Notes under the pieces: model-generated
Seen by the model: the letters and a program-made list of their open reading frames with translations, nothing else
What the model was told of the DNA's origin: nothing
Database searches by the model: none
Program-made: the position numbers and the translations under genes
Virus record (IMG/VR): IMGVR_UViG_3300037010_003311
Span: 124,001 to 188,000 of that record
Length of the DNA stretch: 64,000 nucleotides
DNA from: a virus
Direction: 5' to 3' (one strand)
Part shown: positions 3,577-64,000 of the stretch, one piece after another
Numbering within the stretch: position 1 is the first letter of the stretch
Layout of the letters: every line of letters starts with the position of its first letter

Positions 3577-3587
3577 GATATCTCCTT

Positions 3588-40548: not shown

Positions 40549-40573
40549 ATAATACTCCCTATGACAAGAAAAA

Positions 40574-40642
40574 TAGATTAACCAAGCAGTTGTTGGATCT
40601 GATGGGGAAGAATGGATTGTCATCAACTGCTTGGTTAATCTA
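40574..40642 (-). terminator. 19-bp hairpin with a 31-base loop before the GGDEF gene
   Basis: The arms TAGATTAACCAAGCAGTTG (40574-40592) and its exact complement (40624-40642) enclose 31 bases. On the minus strand the stem is followed by TTTTTCTTGTCA, like the TTTTCCTGTCG tail of other terminators. On the plus strand the loop contains GGGGAAGA-ATG, a ribosome-site-plus-start look-alike. It lies directly upstream of the GGDEF start, so it may act as an attenuator. Confidence 0.65.
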
Positions 40643-44050: not shown

Positions 44051-44084
44051 TATTAGTCCTTGGTATTAATTGAATTTATCTATA

Positions 44085-44094
44085 TATTTCTATA
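44085..44094 (-). promoter_or_regulatory. Promoter-like TATAGAAATA before the epimerase gene
   Basis: Lies 35 bases upstream of ATG 44050, in the 79-bp gap between two epimerase-like genes. Confidence 0.55.
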
Positions 44095-44129
44095 ATAGGT
44101 TAAATCGTTGATATCCGAACTATCAGTAA

Positions 44130-44918
44130 TTAGAACCAACCCAATGCTAACATAGTTTCTAATTCTACAATTGAATAAGATTGTAGGTTATCATACCTAT
44201 AAATACTTTTTTTAGAAATCAAATTATTTAAAAACATTTTAGTTACTTGGCAAGTTTGTTTAATAAAGTTTTCCTTATTAATAATGAAATTTACAATTTG
44301 ATCTTTGTCACCAACAAAACTACCATTCTTTAATTGAAATATTAAACCTTTATTTCTTGTACTATCATATACACGTGGAATATTTAAAATAAGATATTCT
44401 TTGATATTAGAACGAATATATCTTTCCATTGCTAATTTAAATACCGCATAATTATTAAATTCTTCTATATCAACCGTTGGTGCACTAAAACCTAGATTAT
44501 TAATCTTTACTGGTATCTCCTGGAATGTAGCCATACTACTAGCAAATATTAGCTTACATTTTAATGCTTTAGCAAGTTGTACGATATTAATAGTACCATC
44601 AATCATGGTTTGGCTAGTTTTAACTTCATTTTGGAAATCAAACTTATCACTAGGGCTTGCAAAATGAATAATGCAATCAACATTTTTAAATGACCGGTAC
44701 ATACTAACGATTTTCGAATCGCGTATATCTGAATCAATATAAATAATTTTATCAAATCGTTTAGTAAGTTCTGGCTTTAGTAATCCAATAAGATAACCTT
44801 TGCCACCAGTTATTAACGCTGTACCCATTATCCGTTTATTAATTTTCTTTTGTTCATCTTCAAATATAAATGTATTGGTGTTTACTATTTTGATATCATT
44901 TTGTTTCTTGGAGTTCAC
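44130..44918 (-). CDS. Short epimerase/reductase-like SDR protein (262 aa)
   Basis: A GTG start at 44918 behind AGGAAAAG. A 30-residue N-terminal tail precedes a Rossmann strand with an altered glycine motif GGKGYLIG (38-45), then FASSMATF (125-132) and an intact Tyr157/Lys161 pair (YAVFK). The protein is shorter than usual extended SDRs and lacks much of the C-terminal substrate lobe, so it may be a sugar reductase or a divergent epimerase. It overlaps the end of the transketolase C-half gene by 23 bases, indicating coupled translation. Confidence 0.65.
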   Translation of the reverse strand: MNSKKQNDIKIVNTNTFIFEDEQKKINKRIMGTALITGGKGYLIGLLKPELTKRFDKIIYIDSDIRDSKIVSMYRSFKNVDCIIHFASPSDKFDFQNEVKTSQTMIDGTINIVQLAKALKCKLIFASSMATFQEIPVKINNLGFSAPTVDIEEFNNYAVFKLAMERYIRSNIKEYLILNIPRVYDSTRNKGLIFQLKNGSFVGDKDQIVNFIINKENFIKQTCQVTKMFLNNLISKKSIYRYDNLQSYSIVELETMLALGWF

Positions 44919-45369
44919 TATCTTTTCCTAATCTTATATAAAATATTCCATTTGGATAACTATTTATTTCGGCTAAATTATTTTTAAACTCATATAATGT
45001 TTCTGGATCATAAAAAGGAATATCCAGCATCTTCATTATTTCGTAATCATCATCTAATTGATGACCAATACCAAATTTTTCATAACCATACTTACCAGCA
45101 TTACAAATTATAATTTTACCGAAGTGTGATCCAAAGTGTTTACAACTAAATTTTAACTGTTCGAGCCTATGAATAATAAATCCGGCAACACCATAAATGT
45201 AAACGGTGTTACCTTCCGAAGCAATACCAGCTGCTACATTAACTAAATTGCTTTCACCAAGATTACAATTTATAATTTTAGCTTTAGATGGAAATCGTTC
45301 GGTATTCCACATATCTGCATGCAGTAGGTAATCAGTATCTTTTAAACTATCAGCAAAGGTCATGCGCAT
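44896..45369 (-). CDS. Transketolase C-terminal half (pyrimidine-binding domain)
   Basis: A 157-aa protein corresponding to the central Pyr domain of transketolase/DXS enzymes. The segment LGESNLVNVAAGIASEG (37-53) contains the conserved Glu39 that activates thiamine diphosphate, followed by the typical strand VYIYGVAGFI and, further on, ICNAGKYGYEKFGIGHQLDD. The last transketolase domain is missing. It is encoded 54 bases downstream of the N-half and has its own ribosome site (AAAAAGG), so the two probably form one enzyme, as in bacteria with split TktN/TktC. The reaction would move a two-carbon unit between sugars. Confidence 0.75.
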   Translation of the reverse strand: MRMTFADSLKDTDYLLHADMWNTERFPSKAKIINCNLGESNLVNVAAGIASEGNTVYIYGVAGFIIHRLEQLKFSCKHFGSHFGKIIICNAGKYGYEKFGIGHQLDDDYEIMKMLDIPFYDPETLYEFKNNLAEINSYPNGIFYIRLGKDSELQETK

Positions 45370-45396
45370 AATAATTCCTTTTTAAGGCAAATATAC

Positions 45397-45406
45397 GATT
45401 TCTATG
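45397..45406 (-). promoter_or_regulatory. Weak promoter-like box CATAGAAATC
   Basis: Eight of ten bases agree with TATAGAAATA. It lies 28 bases upstream of ATG 45369, the same spacing as the better copies, in the gap between the two transketolase halves. Confidence 0.3.
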
Positions 45407-45423
45407 TTCGATATAATTTATCA

Positions 45424-46161
45424 TCATTTAATAAACCTTTCCAGAAACTTCATCTTTTTTAATTTATCGCTAATGGTAAGTCCATTAAGATGTTTTAAAC
45501 TTTCTAGATTTTTATAGTGCCATTTAACCGAATCAATTTCCATCTCTAGTACTCCATCACCCTTTATCGTATGAATAAAGATAACCACTGGTTTTACTTT
45601 CAGTTCCTGACAATTGGATACTTTTTTAAATTGCTCATCAAAGCTTCGTACCAAATTTATTTTTGGATTAATATATATATCCCAGACCTCCCAATCATTT
45701 ATTTCAAACAATTGTATGTATGAGGAATGTAACTTATTGTCAGCGAGAGGGCCAGTTAATTGCATTTTATTAAAATCTATAGTTACTACCATTTGTAATT
45801 GGTTTTGGCCAATGAACTGGATCGCTTCATATGTAGGCCCCATCTGTAAAGCGGCATCGCTAATATTAACCCATGTTGGTTTATCGGATACTAGACTAAT
45901 TCCAGCCGCTACCCCTAAAGCGTTACCAAGAGTCTCTTCGCTGAAATTTACAAATGGTAACTCTTTATGCTTAATACCATAAGAATATTCAGAAATTGGT
46001 TTAATTGTGGTATCTAACCAACCATTCTTTTCCCAAGTATAATAATAAGCTTCTGCCCCAAACGGTTTACCAATTACTATATTCCAATCTTTAGTTACTA
46101 ACCCATTACTAAATATATAATCTAAATAGTATAATTGTGAAAGAGCACTAGGTATATGCAT
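45424..46161 (-). CDS. Transketolase N-terminal half (thiamine-diphosphate-binding domain)
   Basis: I use ATG 46161 (MHIPSALSQLYYLDYIFSNG), one base after the previous stop; a TTG four codons upstream is possible but lacks a ribosome site. The 245-aa protein has the PP domain of transketolases: GNALGVAAGISL (79-90), the cofactor motif SDAALQMGPTYEA (101-113; Asp kept, first Gly changed to Ser) and the closing DFNKMQLTG (129-137). Together with the following gene it would make a two-subunit transketolase or a relative that builds branched or long-chain sugars. Confidence 0.75.
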   Translation of the reverse strand: MHIPSALSQLYYLDYIFSNGLVTKDWNIVIGKPFGAEAYYYTWEKNGWLDTTIKPISEYSYGIKHKELPFVNFSEETLGNALGVAAGISLVSDKPTWVNISDAALQMGPTYEAIQFIGQNQLQMVVTIDFNKMQLTGPLADNKLHSSYIQLFEINDWEVWDIYINPKINLVRSFDEQFKKVSNCQELKVKPVVIFIHTIKGDGVLEMEIDSVKWHYKNLESLKHLNGLTISDKLKKMKFLERFIK

Positions 46162-46162
46162 A

Positions 46163-47026
46163 TTATAACCCAAACAATGATTTTAAATCTTCTGTTATGG
46201 AATACCCAATTGAATACTCCATCGGTGTATATTCATTTAAAATTTTTATTAACTTAGTATCTATTTCTCTATTAAAGACTGGAGCGATTAATTTATATGA
46301 ATCATTCATACCAAATAATTTGCAGTTAAATATTTCATAATTTAACCGAATCATAATTCTTTTATGATTAAACAGTTTTAATTTATTATTTTGATCGGTC
46401 GTGTCTAATATACAACTATTTTCGTAAATATTTGGGAAATAGCTAAAAATATTATTTTTTGTATATAATGGAAATTCATAAAATCTTTTATATAAATCAA
46501 TTATTAAATCAATATCATTTTTAAGTAGTGGCTCAAAAGGTTTCCAAATAGAACCAGATAAAGCACTGGTTCTATAATATGGTCTCGGCCCATCTTTTAT
46601 TTCAAAATCATTAACGGTAGGATTCGTTTTCGAAAGTACTTTAACCGCTTCAATATACTCACTAAAACTTGGAATATATGGTTCATTACTAGTAGCAGCT
46701 GCAATTAAAGCTTCATGACAATTAATCATCTGCTTTAAATCAATACTACACTCAATTTCCAAATCTTTAAGTAACTTATTACTAATTTTAAAATTTTCAA
46801 TTATTTCAGGTGTAATATTTGCTGCATTATAGAAGTTATTATTATAATGATCTTCTAAACTAGCAAGAGATTTATAATAATAAGTAAAGTTAATATCGCG
46901 GAATACAAACCCCGCCGAGTCATCTATAAATATTATAGGATTAAGAGCCGTTGCTGCATCATCAGCGTACAGCTCATTAATGTATTTCGTTTCCGCCTCA
47001 ATTATGGCTTGCCTCGATTCGTTCAT
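46163..47026 (-). CDS. Unknown protein in the radical SAM island (287 aa)
   Basis: ATG 47026 (MNESRQAIIE) has a very strong ribosome site (AAAGGGGG), so I prefer it to the longer frame. The protein is soluble, rich in Asn, Ile and Tyr, and mostly helical, with four cysteines scattered over the last two thirds. No domain is recognised. It lies between a radical SAM gene and the transketolase N-half with one-base spacing. It may be a partner, scaffold or substrate of these enzymes; this is a guess from context. Confidence 0.5.
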   Translation of the reverse strand: MNESRQAIIEAETKYINELYADDAATALNPIIFIDDSAGFVFRDINFTYYYKSLASLEDHYNNNFYNAANITPEIIENFKISNKLLKDLEIECSIDLKQMINCHEALIAAATSNEPYIPSFSEYIEAVKVLSKTNPTVNDFEIKDGPRPYYRTSALSGSIWKPFEPLLKNDIDLIIDLYKRFYEFPLYTKNNIFSYFPNIYENSCILDTTDQNNKLKLFNHKRIMIRLNYEIFNCKLFGMNDSYKLIAPVFNREIDTKLIKILNEYTPMEYSIGYSITEDLKSLFGL

Positions 47027-47067
47027 GGTTTCCCCCTTTAAATAGATTTGAATCACAGTTAAGCGAA

Positions 47068-48042
47068 TCAATAATTACATATACTAAATGTTAATAATTC
47101 GGAATCCGAAACATTTGAATTATCTATTTTTATTTCAGAAAGAATAGTTTCAATCTCTTTTATTTTAATAGTTTTTGTTTCGTTTTCGTAATGTATTTCT
47201 ACTTCATCTTTATTTATAAAAAATGATGCTGATGGGTTATAGTTCAACGAGGTTTTATCTAATTTCGAAGTATTGTACATATCAAATATTTTTTCTATAT
47301 CGGAAAACTTATCGATAATAGGTTCCCGGCCATAATTAAGAAATTTAAAATTATCTCGAACAAAGTCGAAGCATTCTTTATAGCTTTTAATAAATGTTAT
47401 AGTTTTATATATTTTGAACTTATTTAATACACTTGCTTCAGTAATATTAAATGGTTCAAAGATTCTATAATCGAACCCAATATTAATATAGATATTCTCT
47501 AAATTAAGAGTTTTTAAATACTCTAAAAATCCTAAATACTTTTTAGGATCTTCTGTAACAACTAAATTCAAATTAACATAACCATAATATTTATATGTTG
47601 TTATAATATTTTGAATTATAAATTTTAGTGACCATCTTGGTCCGTTTGTACGTTCTGGGTCCTCGATATGTGGACTAATAACCATATCAACATTCTCTAT
47701 TTTATAGAGCTCTTTAATTATAGTATTAAACTTTTTTATCGGTATTTCACCATTAGTGAAAACATAACCTTTATAATTTTCAATGACTTGTTGCTTATAT
47801 CGCATTAGCTCAATAAAATATGGAGCTAATAATAGTTCACCACCAGCTTCCATAAATATTTTACCTTGCTTTGGCATTACATGATTAAAGTATGGTACTA
47901 TATCGAAGTTTCCAGAATGGTTTTCGGTTATTGTATTATTTAGAAAATTATAACAGAAGTCACATTTTAAATTACATTCGGTGTACCACTCGACACATAT
48001 AATAATATCATCTGGATCAATACTGATTCGGTGGGAACTCAT
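47068..48042 (-). CDS. Radical SAM protein without auxiliary cluster (324 aa)
   Basis: Radical SAM enzymes use an iron-sulphur cluster to split S-adenosylmethionine and start radical chemistry. The cluster motif CxxxCxxC is at Cys23, 27 and 30 (TECNLKCDFCYN), followed by a GGE-like SAM motif (MEAGGELLL, near 75). The C-terminal third has no cysteine cluster, so no SPASM or twitch domain is present, unlike most neighbours. The start codon shares one base with the stop of the previous gene. The substrate is unknown. Confidence 0.8.
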   Translation of the reverse strand: MSSHRISIDPDDIIICVEWYTECNLKCDFCYNFLNNTITENHSGNFDIVPYFNHVMPKQGKIFMEAGGELLLAPYFIELMRYKQQVIENYKGYVFTNGEIPIKKFNTIIKELYKIENVDMVISPHIEDPERTNGPRWSLKFIIQNIITTYKYYGYVNLNLVVTEDPKKYLGFLEYLKTLNLENIYINIGFDYRIFEPFNITEASVLNKFKIYKTITFIKSYKECFDFVRDNFKFLNYGREPIIDKFSDIEKIFDMYNTSKLDKTSLNYNPSASFFINKDEVEIHYENETKTIKIKEIETILSEIKIDNSNVSDSELLTFSICNY

Positions 48043-48626
48043 TAATAATCCTTAATTATAAACATCGGGTACTTAGGAGCTTTCATTTGGAAAGCATAAT
48101 CAACTAAAAATTTTTTTTCATCTTCGAAATTATTAAGAAATGGTTTTTGTACAAAAATATAATTATTAAAAATTAAAAAGGTATCTATCAATGGTACAAT
48201 CCCAGTAGTTAAAACATGATCGAATAGTAGATCGGCAAACTTAATACCACAATATTGTTTAATAATCAAATTATCTTTATTTGGATAGTTCTTTATAAAC
48301 TCTATAATATCTTGATCAGGTAAAGCGTTAGGATTTATTATGTTAGTATAATTATTATTAATTTTATAGAAAAAGTTTTTATCCTGGATGCGTGGGGTAA
48401 ATACTTCTAATTTAGTATGATCGCTTGCAACCTTAAAGCCATAATGTTCGTGAGCAAGAAGTGTACTAACTACATCAGACTGCTTGAAATCAAGAATCTT
48501 TTCTATAAGTGGTTCATAAAAGCCATAATCATCTAAAAATTCTTGAATCTTTCTAGTTTTAATATATTTAATTTTTTCTTCATTGCTAAAAATTTCATCA
48601 CCTTTTATTTGAATAATATTTCCCAT
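48042..48626 (-). CDS. Unknown protein between two radical SAM genes (194 aa)
   Basis: ATG 48626 (MGNIIQIKGDEIF) has a good ribosome site (AGAGG), so the 12 codons before it are excluded. The protein is soluble, rich in Ile, Asn, Phe and Lys, with one cysteine. Helical first half, beta-prone second half. No family is recognised. Both ends overlap or abut radical SAM genes, so co-expression with them is certain enough; its task is not known. Confidence 0.5.
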   Translation of the reverse strand: MGNIIQIKGDEIFSNEEKIKYIKTRKIQEFLDDYGFYEPLIEKILDFKQSDVVSTLLAHEHYGFKVASDHTKLEVFTPRIQDKNFFYKINNNYTNIINPNALPDQDIIEFIKNYPNKDNLIIKQYCGIKFADLLFDHVLTTGIVPLIDTFLIFNNYIFVQKPFLNNFEDEKKFLVDYAFQMKAPKYPMFIIKDY

Positions 48627-48636
48627 ATTAATACCT

Positions 48637-49485
48637 CTAATTTTCCCAAAACTCATTATCAAAATAACAAAAATTATTATGACATTGAGATATTATATAT
48701 TCGTTACCACTAAAATTAAATTCCGAAAGTTTGATGCCAGTTTTATTAGTAAATATATCATTAAAACATTTATATACTACATTATCCTGAATAAATAAAA
48801 CGAAATTTTTAATATGGCACCGTTTATTAAAACTAGAGGTATTATTTTTCCATATTTCATAATTACTTAATTTATTAAACCGATGCGGTATAAATGCCCA
48901 ATCATTTTTTAAATACTTAAAATTTTTATCTTGTTCCAAAGAAACTAAATGTTTACTACTTGGACTAGCATCAAGTTTTTTTGGTAATAATGGATAGTAT
49001 TGAACTTTGTCTTTATAAATCAATTTTAACTTTTTATATAATTCGATATTTGACCGAGGTAGATCCATTATGGAGATTTCGTTAAGATTTGAACTAAATG
49101 TATTAATTGTTTTTAGTAGTTCAATAAATTTAGTTTCAGTATAATGAAAAGAGTAATTTAATTTTATATCAGGGTATGATGCTACGGCTGCTTCGACTAC
49201 CGCGGGGTTAGAACCATTAGTCTGCAAAATTATAGAACCAAAGTAACTTTTAGCTAATAGTATTAAATCTATAAGTTCTGGGTGCAAAGTAGGTTCGCCT
49301 CCAAATATAAATAAAATATTATTATCAATACCTGATTCTTTAACCCTAAGTTTATCGAAAAAATTTTTTAGATTCAAGAAATCTATTTTTGTATAGTCTA
49401 TAGATGATTCAAGCGATTTATGCATATCCTCACAATACGGACAATTGTAATTACAACTTTCAATTAATCGGTACTCTATTTTCAT
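48637..49485 (-). CDS. Radical SAM protein with C-terminal cysteines (282 aa)
   Basis: The motif CxxxCxxC begins at Cys11 (ESCNYNCPYCED, Cys11/15/18), close to the N-terminus, followed by FGGEPTLHPEL, the SAM-binding GGE motif. Three or four C-terminal cysteines (FNKRCHI, VYKCFND, SQCHNNFC) suggest a small extra iron-sulphur site like a twitch domain. It overlaps the upstream radical SAM gene by 26 bases. Ribosome site GAGGG. Length is short for the family but complete for a core barrel. Confidence 0.8.
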   Translation of the reverse strand: MKIEYRLIESCNYNCPYCEDMHKSLESSIDYTKIDFLNLKNFFDKLRVKESGIDNNILFIFGGEPTLHPELIDLILLAKSYFGSIILQTNGSNPAVVEAAVASYPDIKLNYSFHYTETKFIELLKTINTFSSNLNEISIMDLPRSNIELYKKLKLIYKDKVQYYPLLPKKLDASPSSKHLVSLEQDKNFKYLKNDWAFIPHRFNKLSNYEIWKNNTSSFNKRCHIKNFVLFIQDNVVYKCFNDIFTNKTGIKLSEFNFSGNEYIISQCHNNFCYFDNEFWEN

Positions 49486-50596
49486 TTGGCCCTCTATTTT
49501 TTACTTTTAGTGTTTTTAGTAAACCATCGCAGAAGCACCCATTATGAGGGCAACACTTAGGAATAATAGCTTTAATATTTTTGAAAAAATTAAAATTTGT
49601 AGTAAGATCAGCCCGTATATTAAAACAAAATTGTTTTACTTCTCCACGAAAGTTAATTTCATAATTATTATTATAACAATCCCAACCTTTAAAATGTGCA
49701 AATTTTTTAGAATAGATATCATAATCATTTAATAATAGTGGAGTCTCTATATCTGGTTCGGACCAATAGATAATATTTGGTTTATATAAAGCCTCTTGTT
49801 CTAGGTACTGGAATTCATTATAAAATTCTTCTGTATAATTATGTAGTTTATGCATATCACCATCATCATATAAAAAATGTGGATGGATTTCTATCCCATT
49901 GGTTATCAATTCGCGAATTATATTCTTAATAAATGGCCAATATTTTTTATCTGGGTGCAGCATCACATTTACTTTATTTCTATAACCTTTATTTTGCATA
50001 GTTAAAATTTTATCAATGAACTGATTATATTTATCTATATATTCAAAATGAATGCTCCATAAAAAATATATTTTTGGACCACCCCTAGTATCATTAGAAG
50101 TTTGTTTTATAGAATTTTCATAATGATCAATATCTGGTAAAGATTCAAAGAACTCTAAAGGTTGGATGGAATTAGTAGTTATATATAGTCTAGAATCCGG
50201 GTGCCGGTTAATAGCTTTCCAACTTAATTCCATTAATTCCAAAAACCTAGGATGGATGGTTGGTTCACCACCTTGGAAACCTAAAAATATTGGTAGGGTG
50301 CTGCGCTCTAAAGCCGCTATAACTAGCTTTTGCCGGTTCCAAGTATCTTGCTTATTCCATAAACCATCTGGGGAATATTGTTTAATTGCATAACAGTAAG
50401 CGCAATTCAGTTGACACTTAGTACTAACGTCCCAGTGGATATATAACCGGTTAACTTTATGAATATGTTCTACTGATATGGCTTCTGGAGCAGTCGATAC
50501 AATATTTGTATTACCGTGACCCAATAGTTTAAATTCATTTAGTTTGTCTAAGATATCTATTTTTTCCATATTTAAGTAGTTCCATTTCATTTTCAT
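49460..50596 (-). CDS. Radical SAM protein with SPASM-like C-terminus (378 aa)
   Basis: The cluster motif is at Cys61/65/68 (TKCQLNCAYCYA) after a 55-residue N-terminal extension. FQGGEPTIHPRF is the SAM motif. The C-terminus is rich in cysteine (GWDCYNNN, KQFCFN, then KCCPHNGCFCD), as in SPASM proteins that hold extra Fe-S clusters and act on peptides or sugars. The start overlaps the upstream radical SAM gene by 62 bases, one of the longest overlaps here; a later ATG (MEKIDILDK) has no ribosome site. Confidence 0.8.
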   Translation of the reverse strand: MKMKWNYLNMEKIDILDKLNEFKLLGHGNTNIVSTAPEAISVEHIHKVNRLYIHWDVSTKCQLNCAYCYAIKQYSPDGLWNKQDTWNRQKLVIAALERSTLPIFLGFQGGEPTIHPRFLELMELSWKAINRHPDSRLYITTNSIQPLEFFESLPDIDHYENSIKQTSNDTRGGPKIYFLWSIHFEYIDKYNQFIDKILTMQNKGYRNKVNVMLHPDKKYWPFIKNIIRELITNGIEIHPHFLYDDGDMHKLHNYTEEFYNEFQYLEQEALYKPNIIYWSEPDIETPLLLNDYDIYSKKFAHFKGWDCYNNNYEINFRGEVKQFCFNIRADLTTNFNFFKNIKAIIPKCCPHNGCFCDGLLKTLKVKNRGPNENRVPIN

Positions 50597-51377
50597 AATT
50601 TATTTCTCTAAAGTTTTCTATTTCTAGTAGTGAGAGTTGACTCCAGTCTAAATCCTCTGAATAAGGTTTAAGTAGTCGTAGTTTAAAAATAGATAATGGG
50701 GTCTTTGTTAAATTATCAAAAAATCCATTTTTATTATATATATAATAATAAAAATTCTTAGATTTATATTCGTTTGATCCATTCCAATCATCAATAAAAT
50801 ATAAAATATCATATTGATTGAAAAAATTTATAAGTCGTTGATAATCTTTATTATTTGGATCAAGTATTGAAACTTCTAATATAGTATTTTTAGATTGTTT
50901 TAAATAATCTTGCAAGTCTAAAAATTTTGATTCAGTTTTAAGTTTCAATAATTCTGGATGAATACTTATATTTAAAATTAGTAATATATTAGTATCTTTA
51001 AATATATCTATTACATACTTATAAAAACTTAAAGACCCTGAAAAATTTGTAGGTATTACTAAACGAACAGCTTTGTCGGCAAACATATTCTTTATAAGAT
51101 TAAGATATGGTATAACAGTATCTTTAAATAATGATAACTCTCCACCTTGTATAATTAAAAAGAATTGTTCGATCTCGTTTTTCTTACATTCTAATAAAAA
51201 GAATTTTAGATTATAAGTTAATGTTTTTAAATCAATAAGCTTTTTTTGTGAAGTTTCTGAACCCTGTGAACAGTAACTACAACTGAAGTTACAATAACTA
51301 GTTAATTCTATTGTTAGATTCACACTTTTTAATTTTGGGTTAATTTTTAACCGTTGTATTATTGAGGAATCTTTCAT
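50535..51377 (-). CDS. Radical SAM protein without auxiliary cluster (280 aa)
   Basis: Motif at Cys29/33/36 (TSYCNFSCSYCSQG) and a GGE motif in LIIQGGELSLF. There are no cysteines after the barrel, so only the SAM cluster is present. The N-terminal 25 residues are basic. It overlaps the GT2 gene upstream and the next radical SAM gene downstream, so translation is coupled on both sides. Ribosome site GGAG. Substrate unknown. Confidence 0.8.
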   Translation of the reverse strand: MKDSSIIQRLKINPKLKSVNLTIELTSYCNFSCSYCSQGSETSQKKLIDLKTLTYNLKFFLLECKKNEIEQFFLIIQGGELSLFKDTVIPYLNLIKNMFADKAVRLVIPTNFSGSLSFYKYVIDIFKDTNILLILNISIHPELLKLKTESKFLDLQDYLKQSKNTILEVSILDPNNKDYQRLINFFNQYDILYFIDDWNGSNEYKSKNFYYYIYNKNGFFDNLTKTPLSIFKLRLLKPYSEDLDWSQLSLLEIENFREINYENEMELLKYGKNRYLRQTK

Positions 51378-51999
51378 CTTTATTATGCTCCGGAAAACTT
51401 ATATTATCTAAACCATCACATGTTTGGATAAACATTTGTTTTTTTATTAAGGTTATTTTGCCATCCGAGCCATCCACGGATTGTTTAAGTATTTGAAAAA
51501 GTTTCCAATCATTATCTAGGTGATTATTTAATAACTCAGATGGAAAACTAGGTAATAATTCTTTTTTAAAAATAATTTGCGAAAGTTGGAATAAATCATT
51601 TGTAGTTTCTATTTTAAAATTATTTCTATAAGTTAGTTGTAGTAACCGATCTTCTAATTTAGCCGGTTTGTAATTCATATAAATTAATGAAGAATCTAAA
51701 ACTAAATGTTCAACAAAAGATGATGATAAATAATCATCGTCTTCTAAAAAGTAAATGTATTCACCACTAGCTAAATCAAATAAATGTTTATATAAATAAC
51801 CTAAATTATTATTACTATAATATGAATATCTAATCGGGTAAGAATCGGAGTATATTTCCTGAATATCTTTACTATCGTTATTAACGAGAACTTCTATATT
51901 AAATGAAAATTTAAACTGTAAAATACTATTAATACACCGTTCAAATAACTTTGGTCGGTTATGAGTTAAAATCAATATGCTCAATTTGGGGATAGACAT
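51340..51999 (-). CDS. GT2-family glycosyltransferase (GT-A fold)
   Basis: A 219-aa protein that starts with the GT2 signature LSILILTHNRPKLFERCINS (7-26). The metal-binding acidic motif is EDDDYL (86-91), preceded by an aromatic strand YIYFL. These enzymes transfer a sugar from a nucleotide donor. The protein is shorter than typical GT2 enzymes (about 250-300 aa), with a reduced acceptor lobe. It is encoded between radical SAM genes with overlaps of 38-41 bases, so it works in the same unit. Ribosome site AAAAGGAAA. Donor and acceptor are not known. Confidence 0.8.
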   Translation of the reverse strand: MSIPKLSILILTHNRPKLFERCINSILQFKFSFNIEVLVNNDSKDIQEIYSDSYPIRYSYYSNNNLGYLYKHLFDLASGEYIYFLEDDDYLSSSFVEHLVLDSSLIYMNYKPAKLEDRLLQLTYRNNFKIETTNDLFQLSQIIFKKELLPSFPSELLNNHLDNDWKLFQILKQSVDGSDGKITLIKKQMFIQTCDGLDNISFPEHNKDERFLNNTTVKN

Positions 52000-53014
52000 C
52001 TTGCTTTCCTTTTAATTGTTTTTCTATACCATCACATTCTTTAAACCATTTACATTTCATACACTCTTTTGGCTTATAATAAGTGTATTCTCTAGATCGT
52101 TTTGCTGCATTCCATCCTAATTCTAAAGACTCGGACCAAGTATATTGTTTATTATTATCAAATTTATAATCTCCATTATAAACTTCTTTATTCCAATCAG
52201 TTGTATCAAATACGTGCTGAAACTGACCATAAACTAAATCTGTAAATTCCCCAGCAAAGCAAAAGGGCAAATACCGAATACGAATATCAAATTCTGGATA
52301 ACTAACTTTAAGCTGGCGTATAGTATTCAAAACTGGAACACTAAGCTCTTCGTATTTAATTATGTTGGATTTTGCATTATCATCCCAATAATTATGAAAT
52401 ATGAAATTTACTTGTTTTAATCCAAACTTGATAAAATGGTATATTACTTGTAAAAAACTATTATCTATACAATTACGGTTACTAGTTGTAATAGTGCAGT
52501 TAATACGGGTTATAATACCATTAGATAATGAATTGGTAATAGCTTTAACTAAGTTTTTATAAGCTCCTGGTTTACCAACTATTTCATCATGATAATGATC
52601 GGTACCATGCATACTGAATAAAATCTCTTTTAATCCATAATCTTTAGACTTAAGAAGGAAATCAAGATCTTTAAATTTTTGACCATGACTAAGAGTACTA
52701 ACATGATCAAATCCTTCGTTACAATATTTTAAAATCCTAAACCAGTCTGGGTGAATACTACTTTCTCCACCACTAAGTTCGATTTCTTTAATAAGGCTAT
52801 AACTGCTAATATAATCAATACGGTCTTTAATAATTTTAAAATTATCCATCTTATCTAAACGATCTTTATAATAACAGAATGTACAATTCAGATTACAAAG
52901 AGTTCCGGTATCCAATTTTGCTCGCTTACAAAGAGGGTTAGTTTGTTCGGACCATAATGGATTAATTTCTGGCGTAGCAATTAAATTATAATTCATTTTA
53001 TCCCTTTTTTCCAT
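51959..53014 (-). CDS. Radical SAM protein with C-terminal cysteine cluster (351 aa)
   Basis: Motif at Cys40/44/47 (GTLCNLNCTFCYYK), SAM motif LSGGESSIHPDW and a terminal CMKCKWFKEC typical of an auxiliary Fe-S site. Two starts are possible: ATG 53014 behind AAAGG or ATG 52996 (MNYNLIATPE) behind AAAGGGATAA; the second gives 345 aa and is just as likely. A 9-bp hairpin lies just upstream. It is followed by the GT2 gene with a 41-base overlap. Confidence 0.8.
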   Translation of the reverse strand: MEKRDKMNYNLIATPEINPLWSEQTNPLCKRAKLDTGTLCNLNCTFCYYKDRLDKMDNFKIIKDRIDYISSYSLIKEIELSGGESSIHPDWFRILKYCNEGFDHVSTLSHGQKFKDLDFLLKSKDYGLKEILFSMHGTDHYHDEIVGKPGAYKNLVKAITNSLSNGIITRINCTITTSNRNCIDNSFLQVIYHFIKFGLKQVNFIFHNYWDDNAKSNIIKYEELSVPVLNTIRQLKVSYPEFDIRIRYLPFCFAGEFTDLVYGQFQHVFDTTDWNKEVYNGDYKFDNNKQYTWSESLELGWNAAKRSREYTYYKPKECMKCKWFKECDGIEKQLKGKQDVYPQIEHIDFNS

Positions 53015-53025
53015 TAATAATACCT

Positions 53026-53075
53026 TTGTGTAGATAATTGATTTTTCTCTTAAAGATAGTAGTTACTCTACACAA
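53026..53075. other. Hairpin just upstream of a radical SAM gene
   Basis: TTGTGTAGA and TCTACACAA (9 bp, loop 32 bases) in the gap between the GT-B-like gene and the radical SAM gene. On the minus strand the second arm runs directly into the ribosome site AAAGG, so folding could limit access to it. Confidence 0.35.
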
Positions 53076-53079
53076 TTCG

Positions 53080-54066
53080 TTATTTTTTACCAAGAATTTG
53101 TCTTATCGTTTCGATAATTATATCCGAATCATCCAAATATAAGCTATCGAAATTATTTTCTATATCCCATTTTCTAACCATCAGACCAGTGTCGATTTTT
53201 AAATAATCTTCGTCAATATCATTATCGTAAATTACTGGAATACCAAAATATTTACATTCCGCAATCATACGAGGACTACAATCCCATTTACGATCTATTG
53301 GTGTATAGATATATGCTGACATAATTTCAAAAATATTATGGATTGGTACTACTCTATAGCAAACTTGTTTATCAATAATAGGATTATCAAGTAAAGGGCT
53401 CTCTTTATTAATAAGAATAAGTAAGCGTTCGTGGTTATTCAAATTAGATAAATGTTTTTTAATAGTACAATTATCGATCAGTTTACAATTACTCGTAGCA
53501 TATAATATTACATTCTTTGGTAATTGACTTTCCATATGATTAAAGCTATCAGTTTTTAATATTGGATTTAAAGCATTAAAGTTTAATTTTTTAACATAAT
53601 TAAGTTTCTTTGCATTGAGTGGTAATTTATAATTTAATCGTTCATCCACCATAAATAATATTTTATCAATTAAGTTATTATACAACTGGAACTTGGAGTA
53701 ATCTCTAGTCCCACATGGAAATAAAATCAAACCTTTTACATTATATATATTTACCTCATTAAGTAAACCATCGGTAAAAATTAGAATGGAGTTAGGACAA
53801 TTATAAATTCTTGGCCTACTAAATTTAATTTTTAAATCTTTTACTAAATTTGGATCATACTTAGATAATGCTATTTCCATTTCTTCTTTACTAATATCCT
53901 CACCAAAAACTATTTCAACTTTATAATATTTATTTAGTAAGATATAATATTCGATTACTTCAAAAAAATGGCCACAAATTCCATGTTTATTATCATGACT
54001 ACTATAAGTAAGTATTACTTCTGCATCCGAAGTAAAAGCCAATTGCTTTTTAATTTTATTTTCCAT
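53080..54066 (-). CDS. GT-B-like glycosyltransferase-related protein (328 aa)
   Basis: A 328-aa protein with alternating strands and helices. An N-terminal region with GHFFEVIEYYILLNK (about 32-46) and a C-terminal half containing SPRMIAECKYFGIPVIYDN (about 272-290) resemble the nucleotide-sugar-binding half of GT-B glycosyltransferases, where an Arg/Glu-containing helix precedes a GIPVI strand. The 280-aa protein at 57074-57916 shows the same layout, so the two seem to be related. No signal peptide. It overlaps the upstream radical SAM gene by 11 bases. The family call is moderate. Confidence 0.5.
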   Translation of the reverse strand: MENKIKKQLAFTSDAEVILTYSSHDNKHGICGHFFEVIEYYILLNKYYKVEIVFGEDISKEEMEIALSKYDPNLVKDLKIKFSRPRIYNCPNSILIFTDGLLNEVNIYNVKGLILFPCGTRDYSKFQLYNNLIDKILFMVDERLNYKLPLNAKKLNYVKKLNFNALNPILKTDSFNHMESQLPKNVILYATSNCKLIDNCTIKKHLSNLNNHERLLILINKESPLLDNPIIDKQVCYRVVPIHNIFEIMSAYIYTPIDRKWDCSPRMIAECKYFGIPVIYDNDIDEDYLKIDTGLMVRKWDIENNFDSLYLDDSDIIIETIRQILGKK

Positions 54067-54874
54067 TATTATTCCAGTTTTGTTTACATATATTAAAGTT
54101 TTTTAAACTATTAATTGTTGGCTGAAATTGATTAGAACTAAATGAGGTACATGTTTTGCATATATCTGGAGTGATACCATCTTTAAAATCTTTAAATAAT
54201 TTATATCGTTTACCATCTAAATAAAGATCTTTAAAATTGGTTTTATAAATATTTCCAAGTATAGCATCTTTAGTGAGATCGGTTGGTTCTCCGGAACAAG
54301 TGCAATAATTGAAATCACCATTTGATAAAATTCGTGGTACCCATAGATTTGAACACACTCCAGTTATTTTTGGAACATTTATTCGGGATTGAGTTTCACA
54401 ATCATAATCATAAAATCTGTTCCGATTACTTAATTCGATATTGATACCATATTGTTTTGCAAGTTGAATATTTTCTTCAATCTTATAAAAAAATTTATCC
54501 TTAGCTCTTGTCTGGTATTTAAATTCTTCTATCCCATCGCATCCATAATGAGAAACATGAATTTTTAATTTTTTTAAATTAATACCATTCGTAGTTAACT
54601 TATCGAAATTTATTTTAGAAAAATTTGTATGAAATTCAATTGTTTTAAGATTTGAATTGGTGAATAATTTTAGAATTTCATATATATCTGGGTGCAAAAA
54701 TATTTCACCTCGACTTGGAGTTAATTTTAAATATGTTATTTTTAGTTCATTGATATCTTTAATTAAAGTTTTGATTGTGTCGAGGTTAATTATTTCTAAT
54801 GGTTCTTTTGTATTACCCGCCCCACAAAAATAGCACTTAAAATTACACTGATTAATGATCTCAATTGCCAACAT
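54056..54874 (-). CDS. Radical SAM protein with SPASM-like C-terminus (272 aa)
   Basis: Cysteines 10, 14 and 17 form the cluster motif (INQCNFKCYFCGAG). The usual GGE motif is changed to PSRGEIFLHPD. The C-terminal part has several cysteines (GVCSNLW, NYCTCSGEPTDL, ICKTCTSFSS) in the order of a SPASM/twitch region (CSNLW... in a strand followed by GNI). It is the first radical SAM gene of the island in transcription order, overlapping the 121-aa gene by 14 bases. Ribosome site AAAAGG. Confidence 0.8.
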   Translation of the reverse strand: MLAIEIINQCNFKCYFCGAGNTKEPLEIINLDTIKTLIKDINELKITYLKLTPSRGEIFLHPDIYEILKLFTNSNLKTIEFHTNFSKINFDKLTTNGINLKKLKIHVSHYGCDGIEEFKYQTRAKDKFFYKIEENIQLAKQYGINIELSNRNRFYDYDCETQSRINVPKITGVCSNLWVPRILSNGDFNYCTCSGEPTDLTKDAILGNIYKTNFKDLYLDGKRYKLFKDFKDGITPDICKTCTSFSSNQFQPTINSLKNFNICKQNWNNNGK

Positions 54875-59870: not shown

Positions 59871-60773
59871 TTAAACTCTATTAATTTTAGCTTCTAAGTC
59901 AATTACTTGTTTAGTTAAACTAGTTACTTGTTGCTTTAAGTTTTGGACTTCTGCTATTAGTGGACCAATTAACTGTTGATAGTTTACCATATAATAACCA
60001 TCTAAGTCTTGGGTTAAAGCCTCGGAATCGCGTAATTCGGTGTTTAAGAGGCTTTGAGCAATGATACCATAATGCTTTTGTGGTAGAGCCGTAACTTTAT
60101 CCGCAGCTAGGTACTGGAACTTAACTGCTCGAACATTATCCAGAATGCCAGACTCGAGAGTCTGAATATTTGCTTTTAGTCTTTCATCCGAGTAGTTACA
60201 ACCACAGTTACCATTACACGAGCATACTACGTTGCACTTGCAGTCTTGGTCACAACCGGATTGATTAATTACCGTATTATTTAAATTATCTATTATTGAT
60301 CTAATGAAAGCCGCATTAATGATATCGGCGCCATCAGATTTATCTACTGGTGAGGCTGATAGTGTAGATGGTTGTTGCCAGGCATTTTGTAAAGCTTTGA
60401 CTCGGTTAACTACATCTAACCATAACTGACCATAAACTATATGCTTATCAAATGGGGTCTGCCCATTCGCATCAAGATCGATAGTCTGCATCAGCCCTCC
60501 ACCAAGATATGGTAAAGCATTACCAGCAGCATCGTGGAGAGGATTATTTATATATCTATTAATCTCTTCGTTAACAACGTCTACCAATGTTTTAATTATA
60601 TCGGTATCGTAAATAATATGTTGAGCTATTGGATTGCTATCATTTAAAGCCGAAAGTATTGTTGCTGACGTTGGCCAATTTACAACTTGTGCGTCGTCAG
60701 ACCCAGACCCTAAAGCATGTGCCGGGTCATGTGCATTTATATGGCATAAACCATTTGGTGTATTATCTGCCAT
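59871..60773 (-). CDS. Tail fibre/appendage protein with a seven-cysteine cluster and S74 chaperone domain (300 aa)
   Basis: A 300-aa protein in three parts. Residues 1-170 are a structural head. Residues 174-192 hold seven cysteines (174, 178, 180, 184, 186, 190, 192; CDQDCKCNVVCSCNGNCGC). From Ser195 (SDERLKANI) there is an S74-type intramolecular chaperone, which helps trimeric fibres fold and then cuts itself off just before that Ser, ending in a coiled coil (270-300). After cleavage the cysteine cluster would be the C-terminal tip of the fibre. The gene start shares its A with the stop of a SPASM radical SAM gene, so the two are translated together. The cysteines may bind metal or be modified. 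Confidence 0.75.
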   Translation of the reverse strand: MADNTPNGLCHINAHDPAHALGSGSDDAQVVNWPTSATILSALNDSNPIAQHIIYDTDIIKTLVDVVNEEINRYINNPLHDAAGNALPYLGGGLMQTIDLDANGQTPFDKHIVYGQLWLDVVNRVKALQNAWQQPSTLSASPVDKSDGADIINAAFIRSIIDNLNNTVINQSGCDQDCKCNVVCSCNGNCGCNYSDERLKANIQTLESGILDNVRAVKFQYLAADKVTALPQKHYGIIAQSLLNTELRDSEALTQDLDGYYMVNYQQLIGPLIAEVQNLKQQVTSLTKQVIDLEAKINRV

Positions 60774-62083
60774 TAATTCTCCTTTAACATTTTATGTAGT
60801 ATTCTATCTATACTACCAAAGCTTTTATAGAATATACAATTATTGAATTCATTATCGTTATTATATAGATTTTGTATCTGGGTGCTTGATGACTCGGGTA
60901 TTTCGGATGTACTCTGGTTACCAGTTCTAGCTTTATTTAATGAATAGATAGCAGCTGGGCACATCGCACAATACGTAGCGGCACAATCCGTACAAACTGA
61001 GTTCAAATTTTCAACATTATAATTTTCAGCTATTTTATAACGTTCTAAGAAAGCTACTATTTCATTGTATCCAGTTTCCATCAATGGCTCCATAAAATTT
61101 AAACTCATTTTTAAATCTTTGCTATCTTTAATATATAAAGAACCATGGCAGAAGTTTAATGAACCATCCACGTTAAGAGCAATAAGATTTGAACCAGCCG
61201 AACAATGGCTGCGATGACTAAGATTATTATAACCTGAGGTACCAGCCTTAAACCAACTCATAATAAACGAATTATACTTTTTATAAAATTGGTATTCTTT
61301 TTTAACTATTTCCGTAATTGCGGTAGTAAAATGTTTTACTAACTCTAGTTTTTTATTTACCGGTAAAATATTAACATAATCCAATGTTGGTGAGTACTGT
61401 ACATTAATATTCTTTAAATTTGGGTATTTAACCCGTATTAAATTGTCTATCTGATAGAACTCATCCCAAGTGTCGATTAAAGTATCTACCGTCTCTAGTG
61501 CTTGTAATGGTATCGTAGCTTTTAGGCTAAGAAAGTTCAAACCCGTAGTACCGGTACTACCAGTATCACAATAATCTTTTACTATATTTAAAAAATTATT
61601 CAATACTTCCTTTTTAGTGGATGTCCCGGTTTTGGTTAACCGGTATTGATCATTAATTACTTTACCATCATACGATACTTGGATAGTTAAACGATTTAGT
61701 ATATCCAATGATTTAAAGTGATCCAGTATCCGGTTAAGGTTCTTTGCATTATAACCATTTGTATAAATCATGAACTTAATACCATAATTTAGTTTAAAAG
61801 CGTTTGCTGCTCTAATTATGATATCTGGGTTAAGTGTAGGTTCTCCACCCCAGAATGTTATACATATGGAATCAAACCGCTCCATAAAGTAACTACTCCT
61901 TTGTAAAAATTTAATATTTTCAAAAATGGTCTCATAATCTGTAAGCTTGGTTCTATCAGTCTTTTCCCCCTCGAAGCAGTATGTACAAGCTAAGTCACAT
62001 AATGCCGTGGTGGTAATCTCAAATACAAACTCTCTAAGTACTTTGGGTTCAGGTTGTATGATTGATTCTACTATCTCTTTCAT
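60773..62083 (-). CDS. SPASM-type radical SAM enzyme coupled to the fibre gene (436 aa)
   Basis: A 436-aa protein with the cluster motif at Cys29/33/36 (TALCDLACTYCFEG), SAM motif FWGGEPTLNPD and a full SPASM region: HCSAGSNLIALNVDGSLNFC (about 295-314), then VCTDCAATYCAMC and a last Cys near 418. This is the arrangement of peptide-modifying maturases (anaerobic sulphatase-maturing and sactipeptide types). Its stop overlaps the start of the cysteine-cluster fibre gene by one base and its start overlaps the 100-aa gene by four, pointing to a shared task. The ribosome site is weak, so translation is probably coupled. Confidence 0.85.
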   Translation of the reverse strand: MKEIVESIIQPEPKVLREFVFEITTTALCDLACTYCFEGEKTDRTKLTDYETIFENIKFLQRSSYFMERFDSICITFWGGEPTLNPDIIIRAANAFKLNYGIKFMIYTNGYNAKNLNRILDHFKSLDILNRLTIQVSYDGKVINDQYRLTKTGTSTKKEVLNNFLNIVKDYCDTGSTGTTGLNFLSLKATIPLQALETVDTLIDTWDEFYQIDNLIRVKYPNLKNINVQYSPTLDYVNILPVNKKLELVKHFTTAITEIVKKEYQFYKKYNSFIMSWFKAGTSGYNNLSHRSHCSAGSNLIALNVDGSLNFCHGSLYIKDSKDLKMSLNFMEPLMETGYNEIVAFLERYKIAENYNVENLNSVCTDCAATYCAMCPAAIYSLNKARTGNQSTSEIPESSSTQIQNLYNNDNEFNNCIFYKSFGSIDRILHKMLKEN

Positions 62084-62382
62084 TTTAAATCATTTAGAAA
62101 GTTTTCTGCCATTTCCGTTAATTTGGAAAGATTAACATCCGGTTCGGACTCTATATTAGAAGACATTATAGATTCTAAAATGTCTTTCATCTGTTCAGGA
62201 TCTATTCGGTAATCATTATCATCTACTTGCTTAAGTAACGCTTCCAAGGTACTCAGTAAAAACATATCTAAAGTGCGGTCTTCATCTTTTATATTAGCAT
62301 ACGCTAAAGCTATACCAACTGCGGCAAGAAAATACTTTTGATTTTTCTTTTTTTGTAACTCTATTTCATTTAACGGTTTCAT
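62080..62382 (-). CDS. Small helical protein between two SPASM enzymes (100 aa)
   Basis: A 100-aa all-helical, acidic protein (ALAYANIKDEDRTLDMFLLS in the middle) with no cysteine. It does not look like a PqqD-type peptide-recognition domain, which has a beta-winged helix, nor like a precursor peptide. A good ribosome site (GGAGAG). Gaps of 1 base and an overlap of 4 bases tie it to the radical SAM genes on both sides. It may be an adaptor for one of them. Confidence 0.55.
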   Translation of the reverse strand: MKPLNEIELQKKKNQKYFLAAVGIALAYANIKDEDRTLDMFLLSTLEALLKQVDDNDYRIDPEQMKDILESIMSSNIESEPDVNLSKLTEMAENFLNDLK

Positions 62383-62383
62383 T

Positions 62384-63526
62384 TTAACTCTCCATTTCTA
62401 TTATTGTTTTTAGTTGATTTTTTATATTTGTATTTGTTGTACCCTGCGATATTATGGCTAAAGCGTACTGATTTAACCTTTTGAATATATTGCACAGGTT
62501 TTCTTCTGGTACGAAGTCGTTTGTGACAATCTGTGCTAAACAACCTTTATCACATACATTTTTAATACTGCATGCCTGGCAAGTAGGATTGTTTATAGCC
62601 TGGTCATAATCTTTGACTGTAAGTTTTTTATCCATGAAGGAGTTACATGAATATATTTCATTATCTGGTCCTATAAGTAACTTATTCGATGGGGTGGAAT
62701 TATCAGAAACTGGTAGAACACCACAACTTGAAATACTAACTGATTTCATTTTGTAAATTATATTTTTAACAATCCATTCCCGGAATATACTTGGTATTCT
62801 ACCAGAATACATAGGGCTCAAAATAAATTGATATAATTCCAATAACTGCTGGAATAGTTCAGATACTGATTCATTATCCCAAATACCATTGTCGCGTACT
62901 AAAGTTAAATGTGGTTCTAAATTATAATTATCCTTAATCCATCTATAATTCTTTAAAATAGATACCCGCTTAATACCAGTTGGATAAATCATTGTATGAC
63001 AAAATGGTGCACAATACTTTAGTAAAGTTTTAAATTCTGGAGCCTGGTATTGTTCCAATACCCTAGTATTACCGCGCTGTGGTCGCTGTATATCAGTCCA
63101 TAAACCATCGAATGAAAATATGACTTGCACTGGAGACTTACGATATGTTTTGTCCGTTAATCGTTTTAAGTTTTCTTCCGTTGCTAGAAGCATATTACTG
63201 GGTAACTTATAATATACCTGATATGGTGGATGATCTGATGCCGAGAATAGTTCATCTAAACCATCTAGTATTTCTAAAATAAGATTGGTCTTCAATAATG
63301 GTTCTCCACCAAAGAAATCAATATATATTTTATTAGTATTTAAAACTTGGGTTGCTGGTTGCTTTGGATGGTTTAGCTTTTCTAAGTATTGTTGTATGAA
63401 CTCTATGGTTCGATGAGGTTCAATTGCCTGGTGGTTGCTATTATCAAAATTATAACAATAACTACAATTTAGATTACATTGTTTGGTTAGCATAATAGTT
63501 ATATAAATATTTTCTTTCACGTACAC
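62384..63526 (-). CDS. SPASM-type radical SAM enzyme (380 aa)
   Basis: Motif at Cys17/21/24 (KQCNLNCSYCYN), SAM motif FFGGEPLL, and a C-terminal SPASM region with YSCNSF, then CQACSIKNVCDKGC and a final LCNIF. This is close in layout to maturases that act on Cys-rich or Ser/Cys-type peptide substrates. The start is drawn at GTG 63526, but GTG 63520 has the better-spaced AAGAG ribosome site and may be the true one. It is the first gene of the unit enzyme - 100 aa - enzyme - fibre and has a promoter-like box 28 bases upstream. Confidence 0.85.
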   Translation of the reverse strand: MYVKENIYITIMLTKQCNLNCSYCYNFDNSNHQAIEPHRTIEFIQQYLEKLNHPKQPATQVLNTNKIYIDFFGGEPLLKTNLILEILDGLDELFSASDHPPYQVYYKLPSNMLLATEENLKRLTDKTYRKSPVQVIFSFDGLWTDIQRPQRGNTRVLEQYQAPEFKTLLKYCAPFCHTMIYPTGIKRVSILKNYRWIKDNYNLEPHLTLVRDNGIWDNESVSELFQQLLELYQFILSPMYSGRIPSIFREWIVKNIIYKMKSVSISSCGVLPVSDNSTPSNKLLIGPDNEIYSCNSFMDKKLTVKDYDQAINNPTCQACSIKNVCDKGCLAQIVTNDFVPEENLCNIFKRLNQYALAIISQGTTNTNIKNQLKTIIEMES

Positions 63527-63639: not shown

Positions 63640-64000
63640 TTAAACTTTTAATTCTACGATTCCATCAACTGAATCACTTAAAGCTATTCCAATAAATGAA
63701 AATTGATAATTGTTTGGTAGGTTCCATCTTTGATAACCAACTGCTTTGCCACCATTACTTGCTAAAAGATATTCACCTTTAGCAACTGGTGCCGCAACTT
63801 TAACTGGGATACGACCTTTTAGTGCAATAAATGGATTATACAGATCATACATCTTACCGGTAGTTTCTAACTCTTCTGGTGATAGAGTACCAAGATTATC
63901 ATTCATTCTAAATGCTGGTTTCTTAGAAACTACTCCAGCTAGTGGCATACCTGGTTCAAAAAGAGTTACCTCCTGGCTTCCACCTATTGCTAATATAGTA
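63640..64000 (-). CDS. C-terminus of a fibre or virion-surface protein, cut by the window edge
   Basis: An open frame of 119 codons enters from the right edge without a start in the window. The end contains PGMPLAGVVSKKPAFRMN, then NPFIALKGRIPVKVAAPVAKG and a closing IGIALSDSVDGIVELKV. This is the usual C-terminal beta domain of phage tail-fibre and virion proteins (seen together with peptidase G2-like self-cleaving ends), in which GRVPVKV and IGxAL strands recur. The rest lies outside the window, so the whole product cannot be named. It ends at its own terminator, separate from the radical SAM operon. Confidence 0.6.
   Translation of the reverse strand, partial: TILAIGGSQEVTLFEPGMPLAGVVSKKPAFRMNDNLGTLSPEELETTGKMYDLYNPFIALKGRIPVKVAAPVAKGEYLLASNGGKAVGYQRWNLPNNYQFSFIGIALSDSVDGIVELKV

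Follow-up and report, generated by a model that had tools for sequence, protein, structure and literature searches.

Paired SPASM radical SAM enzymes and cysteine-repeat tail fibres in phages: a probable modification of the fibre tip

Introduction

What do two SPASM radical SAM enzymes do in a virus, encoded in an operon that ends with a tail-fibre gene carrying a dense cluster of cysteines? The question is raised by a stretch of 64,000 nucleotides (hereafter, the window) that spans positions 124,001-188,000 of the 226,657-bp virus record IMGVR_UViG_3300037010_003311. Since the record encodes a terminase, a tail sheath and a major head protein, it derives from a tailed phage with a contractile tail. 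A reading of the window made from its sequence had suggested that the phage modifies its fibre tip by radical chemistry, the plain alternative being that the cysteines bind Zn or Fe-S and the enzymes act elsewhere. The analyses reported here indicate that the two enzymes, RS1 and RS2, very probably modify the Cys repeats of the fibre tip, in a step resembling the maturation of ribosomally synthesized and post-translationally modified peptides (RiPPs).

Results

The operon and the cysteine cluster of the fibre

A single, tightly packed operon on the minus strand consists of RS1 (62384..63526, GTG start, 380 residues), an open reading frame for a small acidic, Cys-free protein of 100 residues (62080..62382), RS2 (60773..62083, 436 residues) and the S74 tail-fibre protein (59871..60773, 300 residues), which is the predicted substrate and matches PHROG tail fibre families with E-values down to 4e-14. 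RS1 and the small gene are separated by 1 base, the small gene overlaps RS2 by 4 bases, and RS2 overlaps the fibre gene by 1 base; the sequence-only reading, in which two SPASM radical SAM genes and a 100-residue gene run into a fibre gene with junctions of 1-4 bases, is confirmed in these coordinates. The operon has linked enzymes and a predicted self-cleaving domain, by which a ribosomal precursor would be modified and then trimmed if this is a RiPP pathway.

Of the eight cysteines in the fibre, seven (residues 174, 178, 180, 184, 186, 190 and 192) lie within 19 residues (CDQDCKCNVVCSCNGNCGC, 60198..60254), a density that was reached in none of 200,000 random shuffles of the positions of the fibre. 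Cys makes up 1.0% of the coding sequence of the window, and this is the sole convincing coding Cys cluster in its 64 kb. The cluster can be written as a hexad repeat, CxCNxx, in the register SGCDQD / CKCNVV / CSCNGN / CGCNYS, with the last C-x-C-N-Y directly preceding Ser195. At this serine (S195-D196, motif SDERLK) begins the intramolecular chaperone domain Peptidase_S74 (PF13884; 32.3 bits versus the Pfam cut-off of 22), which extends to the C-terminus (59871..60191); residue positions and domain start thus agree with the earlier claim of seven cysteines just before the S74 serine. Because the fibre belongs to the S74 family, we infer a cleavage site here, and self-cleavage before Ser195 is predicted to leave ...CGCNY as the new C-terminus. 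No second S74 gene was found in the 226,657-bp record. The fibre sequence contains neither an HxH motif, in whose place there is CxC, nor the CxPxR sulfatase motif that is the target of anSME.

The two radical SAM enzymes

RS2 scores above the Pfam Radical_SAM cut-off (43.4 versus 29.5 bits); RS1 is sub-threshold for this family at 26.3 bits and above threshold for Fer4_12. Both proteins begin at the radical SAM core, without a long N-terminal domain. The CX3CX2C cluster motif is formed by C17/C21/C24 in RS1 and by C29/C33/C36 in RS2, and it is followed by seven C-terminal cysteines of SPASM type (C268, C294, C316, C319, C325, C329 and C345 in RS1; C294, C312, C364, C367, C372, C375 and C416 in RS2). 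All of these are invariant in the family alignments of both enzymes, with a C-terminal spacing of CX2CX5CX3C in RS1 and a variant, CX2CX4CX2C, in RS2.

In a tree of 110 radical SAM proteins from the loci surveyed here we recognize three clades, A, B and C, with the phages' other radical SAM genes falling in separate clades. RS1 groups with clade A and RS2 lies inside clade B (Shimodaira-Hasegawa-like approximate likelihood ratio test, SH-aLRT, 93 and 97, respectively), and hidden Markov models (HMMs) of the clades concur with the tree (E = 3e-43 for RS1 with A, 2e-64 for RS2 with B). The window therefore has an A enzyme and a B enzyme next to a CxC-repeat fibre, which is how the system is defined in this analysis. 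Clade C adjoins heptad fibres (see below), and no member of it was recognized in the window or in the other genome stretches scanned.

The top NCBIfam model for RS1, RS2, gp136, gp023 and one clade C enzyme is the same, PapB (NF047865), with scores of 54-132 bits (55.8 for RS2, 54.1 for RS1) against a cut-off of 340. With the SCIFF maturase model (TIGR03974, cut-off 425) RS1 reaches 26.3 bits, and this model is not among the best 25 matches of RS2; with anSME (TIGR03942, cut-off 349) the two enzymes score 34.9 and 31.6 bits, and the phage enzymes also give sub-threshold matches to QhpD (TIGR03906). The structure model of RS2 (predicted local distance difference test score 82) has CteB, ChlB, anSME, SuiB and SkfB as its nearest structures, with EpeE as a further neighbour; of the solved structures, CteB (PDB 5wgg) comes nearest to the RS2 model, and by sequence it is also the one nearest to RS1. 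Among curated families and known structures, peptide thioether maturases are the nearest to RS1 and RS2.

Recurrence of the pairing in other viruses

We found no close relatives of RS1 or RS2 in viral contigs. Because the two enzymes are too divergent for scans of that kind, the survey was based on DNA patterns for the Cys repeat, both of which select on the repeat independently of any radical SAM gene. The pattern CxCxxSDERLK gave 8 matches, namely full in-frame Cys fibres in L016, L018 and L019, a fragment at a contig end in L020, and four others that were discarded as chance. The pattern C[ND]CN[YF]CxC[ND]C gave 61 stretches, nearly all of them in-frame Cys-repeat proteins. A loose hexad pattern yielded mostly chance among the matches listed, with at least 4 in-frame cases, at least 3 of which have a radical SAM gene in the record.

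Dereplication of the Cys-repeat proteins at 90% identity left 48 clusters, which are not fully independent, as some of the phages are related. For 43 clusters the flank extends to 3 kb or more; a radical SAM gene is found within 3 kb in 35 of them, and in 24 of these 35 it lies within 600 bp on the same strand. When the whole records were searched for the 13 clusters without a near radical SAM gene, 10 turned out to have one beside the Cys gene, 2 are at contig ends and 1 has none, which brings the total to 45 of 48. As controls we used S74 fibres lacking a Cys cluster, taken by the pattern SDERLKxNI, which tend to come from smaller records than the Cys-repeat proteins: radical SAM neighbours were seen in 0 of 71 after dereplication, in 1 of 108 in all, and in 0 of 9 in records larger than 60 kb (Fisher p of about 2e-25 for a radical SAM gene within 3 kb, Cys-repeat clusters versus controls). 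In 16 control records searched whole, radical SAM genes above cut-off occur in 3, all larger than 130 kb, and none is close to the fibre. The sole control with such a neighbour, L172, also encodes a Cys peptide of its own (CxCxCxCxC), which is 71 residues long, ends in CECQCQCACSRGTV and overlaps the radical SAM gene. Cys-cluster fibres that lack nearby SPASM genes, whose frequent occurrence would have spoken against the sequence-only reading, are thus not common.

The survey identifies the Cys-repeat fibres as a large, previously unrecognized family, with either a heptad repeat, CTC[ND]CNY, or the hexad CxCNxx. In a genome collection, the pair of Cys gene and radical SAM gene was also found in a Thermoplasmata metagenome-assembled genome (twice), a Chloroflexi metagenome-assembled genome, an uncultured bacterium and an isolate of Clostridium rectalis.

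Relatives of the window operon

The most informative relative is L381 (IMGVR_UViG_3300024324_000425), in which a clade A enzyme (3262-4254), a small protein of 72 residues (4247-4465), a clade B enzyme (4455-5570) and a hexad Cys fibre with an S74 domain (5572-6240) follow each other in the same order as in the window. Its hexads read CICNSD/CACNNV/CACHND/CACNYSDERLK, and L016 is of the same hexad type. The A and B enzymes of L381 are also the closest relatives of RS1 and RS2 (29% and 33% identity, respectively; SH-aLRT 75 for the A pair and 100 for the B pair). Since order, hexad type and best-matching enzymes are all shared, the hexad fibre and its enzymes have co-diverged.

Full-length distant homologues of RS1 and RS2 are found only in the Firehammervirus phages of Campylobacter; for RS2, Erwinia phages and faecal contigs additionally gave partial matches. 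In phage CP220, gp136 is the RS2 homologue and lies 2.2 kb from gp140, a protein of 534 residues with seven repeats of the type CDCNYCT. gp140 occurs in 15 phage records, and probes for clades A and B match exactly those 15 among 50,697 records; however exact, the coincidence counts as one event, because all 15 belong to one genus. The 2010 paper on CP220 described the 11 radical SAM genes of this phage as highly unusual and also mentioned a 21-bp repeat within CPT_0180, and did not connect the two (PMC2853527). CPT_0180, the Cys-repeat protein of the Campylobacter phages, belongs to PHROG 26958, which is annotated as unknown and matches the heptad repeats in proteins of other phages.

Repeat composition and fibre architecture

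Of 384 heptads, 348 have N or D at position 4, 343 have N at position 6 and 334 have Y or F at position 7; a total of 275 units fit N/D4-N6-Y/F7, and in these none of the three cysteines is ever replaced. N or D directly follows 754 of about 815 CxC motifs, and Thr, Asn and Tyr/Phe make up most of the remainder of the repeat units. The hexads of the window lack a Tyr in each repeat. Cys content reaches its maximum in a protein of 346 residues with 90 Cys.

Among 43 non-redundant Cys proteins, the S74 domain is complete in 6 and absent from 23, and a further 12 proteins stop 12 residues into the domain. The truncated type (L018, L020, L032, L039, L048, L057 and others) ends as YSDERLKxxIxYL-stop, and this conserved remnant of 12 residues may serve the enzymes as a recognition tail. 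The Cys-repeat proteins are fibre-like, with repeats at or near the C-terminus, either natively or after the predicted removal of S74; there are exceptions, such as gp140, in which further sequence follows the repeats, and the Cys protein of L079 has an extra tail-fibre assembly domain. In L019 (2648-3459) the S74 domain is split, the fibre ending in SDERLKTNIVYIGVF and the remainder being a separate open reading frame from an overlapping ATG, which could reflect reinitiation, a frameshift or a sequencing error. In L039 (4721-7285) and L049 (7386-9443), three to four tandem Cys-fibre paralogues stand behind one enzyme set.

The gene next upstream of the window operon, of which the 3' end is at 63640..64000 on the minus strand, encodes another tail-fibre-like protein, of 620 residues (L012 3640-5502). 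In L033 the gene just upstream of the Cys protein has a C-terminus that, by eye, resembles that of this 620-residue protein.

The small protein

By position, the 100-residue protein of the window corresponds to the 72-residue gene of L381 and to a gene of about 125 residues in heptad-type phages, where a clade C enzyme and this acidic helical protein usually precede the fibre. HMM and profile scores between the window protein and the ~125-residue gene are within those of shuffles, and 1.5% of shuffles score as well as its comparison with the L381 protein. AlphaFold modelled the small-protein family too poorly for the model to be of use (predicted template modelling score 0.35). In CP220, gp020 (L010 4488-4865), which is near a clade A enzyme, ends in KCDHESCGCKDSKGI, and its alignment with the L381 small protein beats 99.8% of shuffles.

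Discussion

These results can be interpreted as follows. As the pairing of enzymes and Cys fibres recurs in dozens of distant viruses, it is very probable that phages modify the cysteines of their own fibre tips; from sequence, the fibre is strongly inferred to be the substrate of the A and B enzymes. RS1 and RS2 would act on the CxC repeats of the fibre that the final gene of the operon encodes, probably before this fibre folds and perhaps assisted by the small acidic protein, and would introduce covalent modifications that involve Cys, the likeliest being thioether crosslinks within the chain that join each Cys to a residue close by. The fibre would then trimerize under the S74 domain, which would finally cut itself off before Ser195, so that the modified repeats become the extreme C-terminal tip that meets the host. 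Kinship with PapB and CteB, the invariance of Cys and the N or D after CxC make a thioether the most likely bond; if the enzymes do act on the Cys repeats, we consider the chances of a thioether to be about even. The earlier suggestion of a fibre tip modified by radical chemistry has thus gained from the co-occurrence, the clade specificity and the maturase kinship, and the kind of bond is still a prediction.

Several observations weigh against this interpretation. RS1 and RS2 stay well short of all curated maturase cut-offs (54-56 bits versus 340 for PapB), for which reason the bond type is unreadable from the family. The support is drawn from sequence and genome context, and since these phages carry other radical SAM genes as well (there are 8 matches to PF04055 in the virus record of the window), some of the neighbourhood could reflect shared ancestry. 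One Cys-repeat record, the 43.8-kb fragment L031, is without any radical SAM gene. Finally, CPT_0180, the CP220 homologue, is absent from the 11 gel bands identified in the study of that phage (PMC2853527).

The most serious competitor retains the same enzymes and the same substrate and differs only in the product, which would be formylglycine, Tyr/Asn crosslinks of the cyclophane kind, an epimerized residue or some other modification with Cys as a helper. The presence of anSME, SuiB and EpeE among the structural neighbours and the conservation of Tyr/Phe and Asn in the heptads are consistent with such chemistry, but no feature of the repeats is as invariant as Cys, PapB is the top profile for all five enzymes tested, the fibre has no CxPxR motif, and the window hexad does without a Tyr per repeat. 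We regard a product other than a thioether as a real though lesser possibility, roughly one in three, and it overlaps with fibre modification as such, of which it is a variant. The same invariance bears on the plain alternative, a metal-site fibre in which the CxC motifs of three chains bind Fe, Zn or Fe-S along the axis. CxC is indeed a metal-binding motif, the repeats suit a fibre, and T4 gp37 has HxH iron sites, which have been predicted for further phage fibres as well (PMC11705849). No His or Ser is found at the Cys positions of the 275 consensus units, however, and the adjacency of clades A and B in distant phages, the absence of radical SAM genes next to other S74 fibres and the co-divergence of the enzymes with the repeat type would all be left unexplained; a metal site is therefore weakened, yet it still stands as an improbable explanation.

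More improbable still is that RS1 and RS2 belong to the radical SAM and sugar module at 43046-54874 of the window and target glycans, nucleotides or host metabolites, their place beside the fibre being inherited synteny. It is true that 6 of the 8 PF04055 matches of the record lie elsewhere, and that other Cys-fibre phages have relatives of several of these. The radical SAM enzymes of that module, though, fall in separate clades; it is A and B, and not the module enzymes, that adjoin Cys genes in the Thermoplasmata, Campylobacter-phage and L381 contexts; and A and B have peptide maturases as their nearest relatives.

Fibre modification by RS1 and RS2 resembles several known systems without coinciding with any. 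PapB, a ranthipeptide maturase, is likewise a SPASM radical SAM enzyme with a Cys-rich substrate; it links Cys to Asp/Glu and tolerates Cys-Xn-Asp with n = 0-6 (PMC9413430). The substrates of PapB are short peptides, whereas here the substrate would be a fibre protein of a phage, in which CxC is mostly followed by Asn. The CteB/SCIFF system shares a Cys-dense substrate and has a thioether product, but RS1 and RS2 are below its cut-off and without its long N-terminal domain, and the fibre is not a SCIFF peptide. QhpD, the maturase of quinohemoprotein amine dehydrogenase, provides an earlier case of thioethers that a radical SAM enzyme makes in a protein and not in a small RiPP; it is a single cellular enzyme system, with no phage and no repeats. 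anSME is a neighbour in SPASM fold, and some phage homologues are so annotated (CP20, JWF); the window enzymes are below its cut-off and the fibre lacks its target motif. T4 gp37 also has a repeated motif at the fibre tip (xHxH there, xCxC here), with His in place of Cys and without radical SAM enzymes next door. In a search of the open-access literature, no paper turned up that connects radical SAM enzymes with the maturation of phage fibres or with a virion protein.

Modification of the Cys repeats by A and B would also provide a function for the radical SAM genes called highly unusual in Campylobacter phages (CP220/CPt10) since 2010. The broader proposition, that tailed phages have repeatedly evolved SPASM crosslinking of ultra-Cys repeats in virion proteins into a covalently locked tip exposed by S74 or Hint self-cleavage, seems to us evenly poised. 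If true, viruses would have a new class of post-translational protein modification, the crosslinked repeats would form a new, polymer-like thioether fold, and many unexplained phage radical SAM genes would be accounted for. Radical SAM enzymes that modify peptides are familiar from bacterial RiPPs and from a few enzymes; the genomes indicate a common and recurrent use in phages. Cultured examples are available in phages CP220, IBB_35, JWF and 2-1 and in the isolate Clostridium rectalis Marseille-P4200, and the enzymes may handle long, regular Cys repeats, which would make them useful for crosslinked protein fibres.

Other pairings and neighbouring genes

In the Achromobacter phages JWF and 2-1 (L378 3844-5295 and L379 3853-5295), the fibre has a Cys run, NCNCDCNC(NC)SCFPAGTMV, directly before a Hint-annotated domain, and a radical SAM gene lies two genes downstream; the combination of Cys run, self-processing domain and SPASM enzyme thus recurs with different parts. 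A different type of radical SAM enzyme is paired with Cys-run proteins in L254 and L330/L331.

The pattern YDDYxxxCxCxC identifies 41 in-frame peptides of 57-93 residues, most of them ending in CxCxCxCxRG; radical SAM genes are present in the fetched stretch in 36 of the 41, and in 10 of 10 where the flanks are full. In L172 (4570-4785) and L332-L377 the peptides end in YDDYxTxCxCxCxCxRGxL and often overlap a radical SAM gene, followed by up to three such genes. These peptides apparently represent a separate and common phage system of radical SAM enzyme and peptide; tblastn with the YDDY and CNCNC peptides gave no match in cultured phages.

Elsewhere in the window, the second radical SAM module (43046-54874) comprises six or so radical SAM-like genes together with two NAD epimerases, a transketolase-like pair and a family 2 glycosyltransferase. 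Several of its genes have relatives of 28-48% identity in other Cys-fibre phages, and its product is perhaps a surface or DNA sugar. The window also encodes a protein with a GGDEF (diguanylate cyclase) domain (40021-40626) and a PIG-L/LmbE-type deacetylase (38101-38769); an LmbE-like gene has likewise been reported for Campylobacter phage IBB_35 (PMC3322345).

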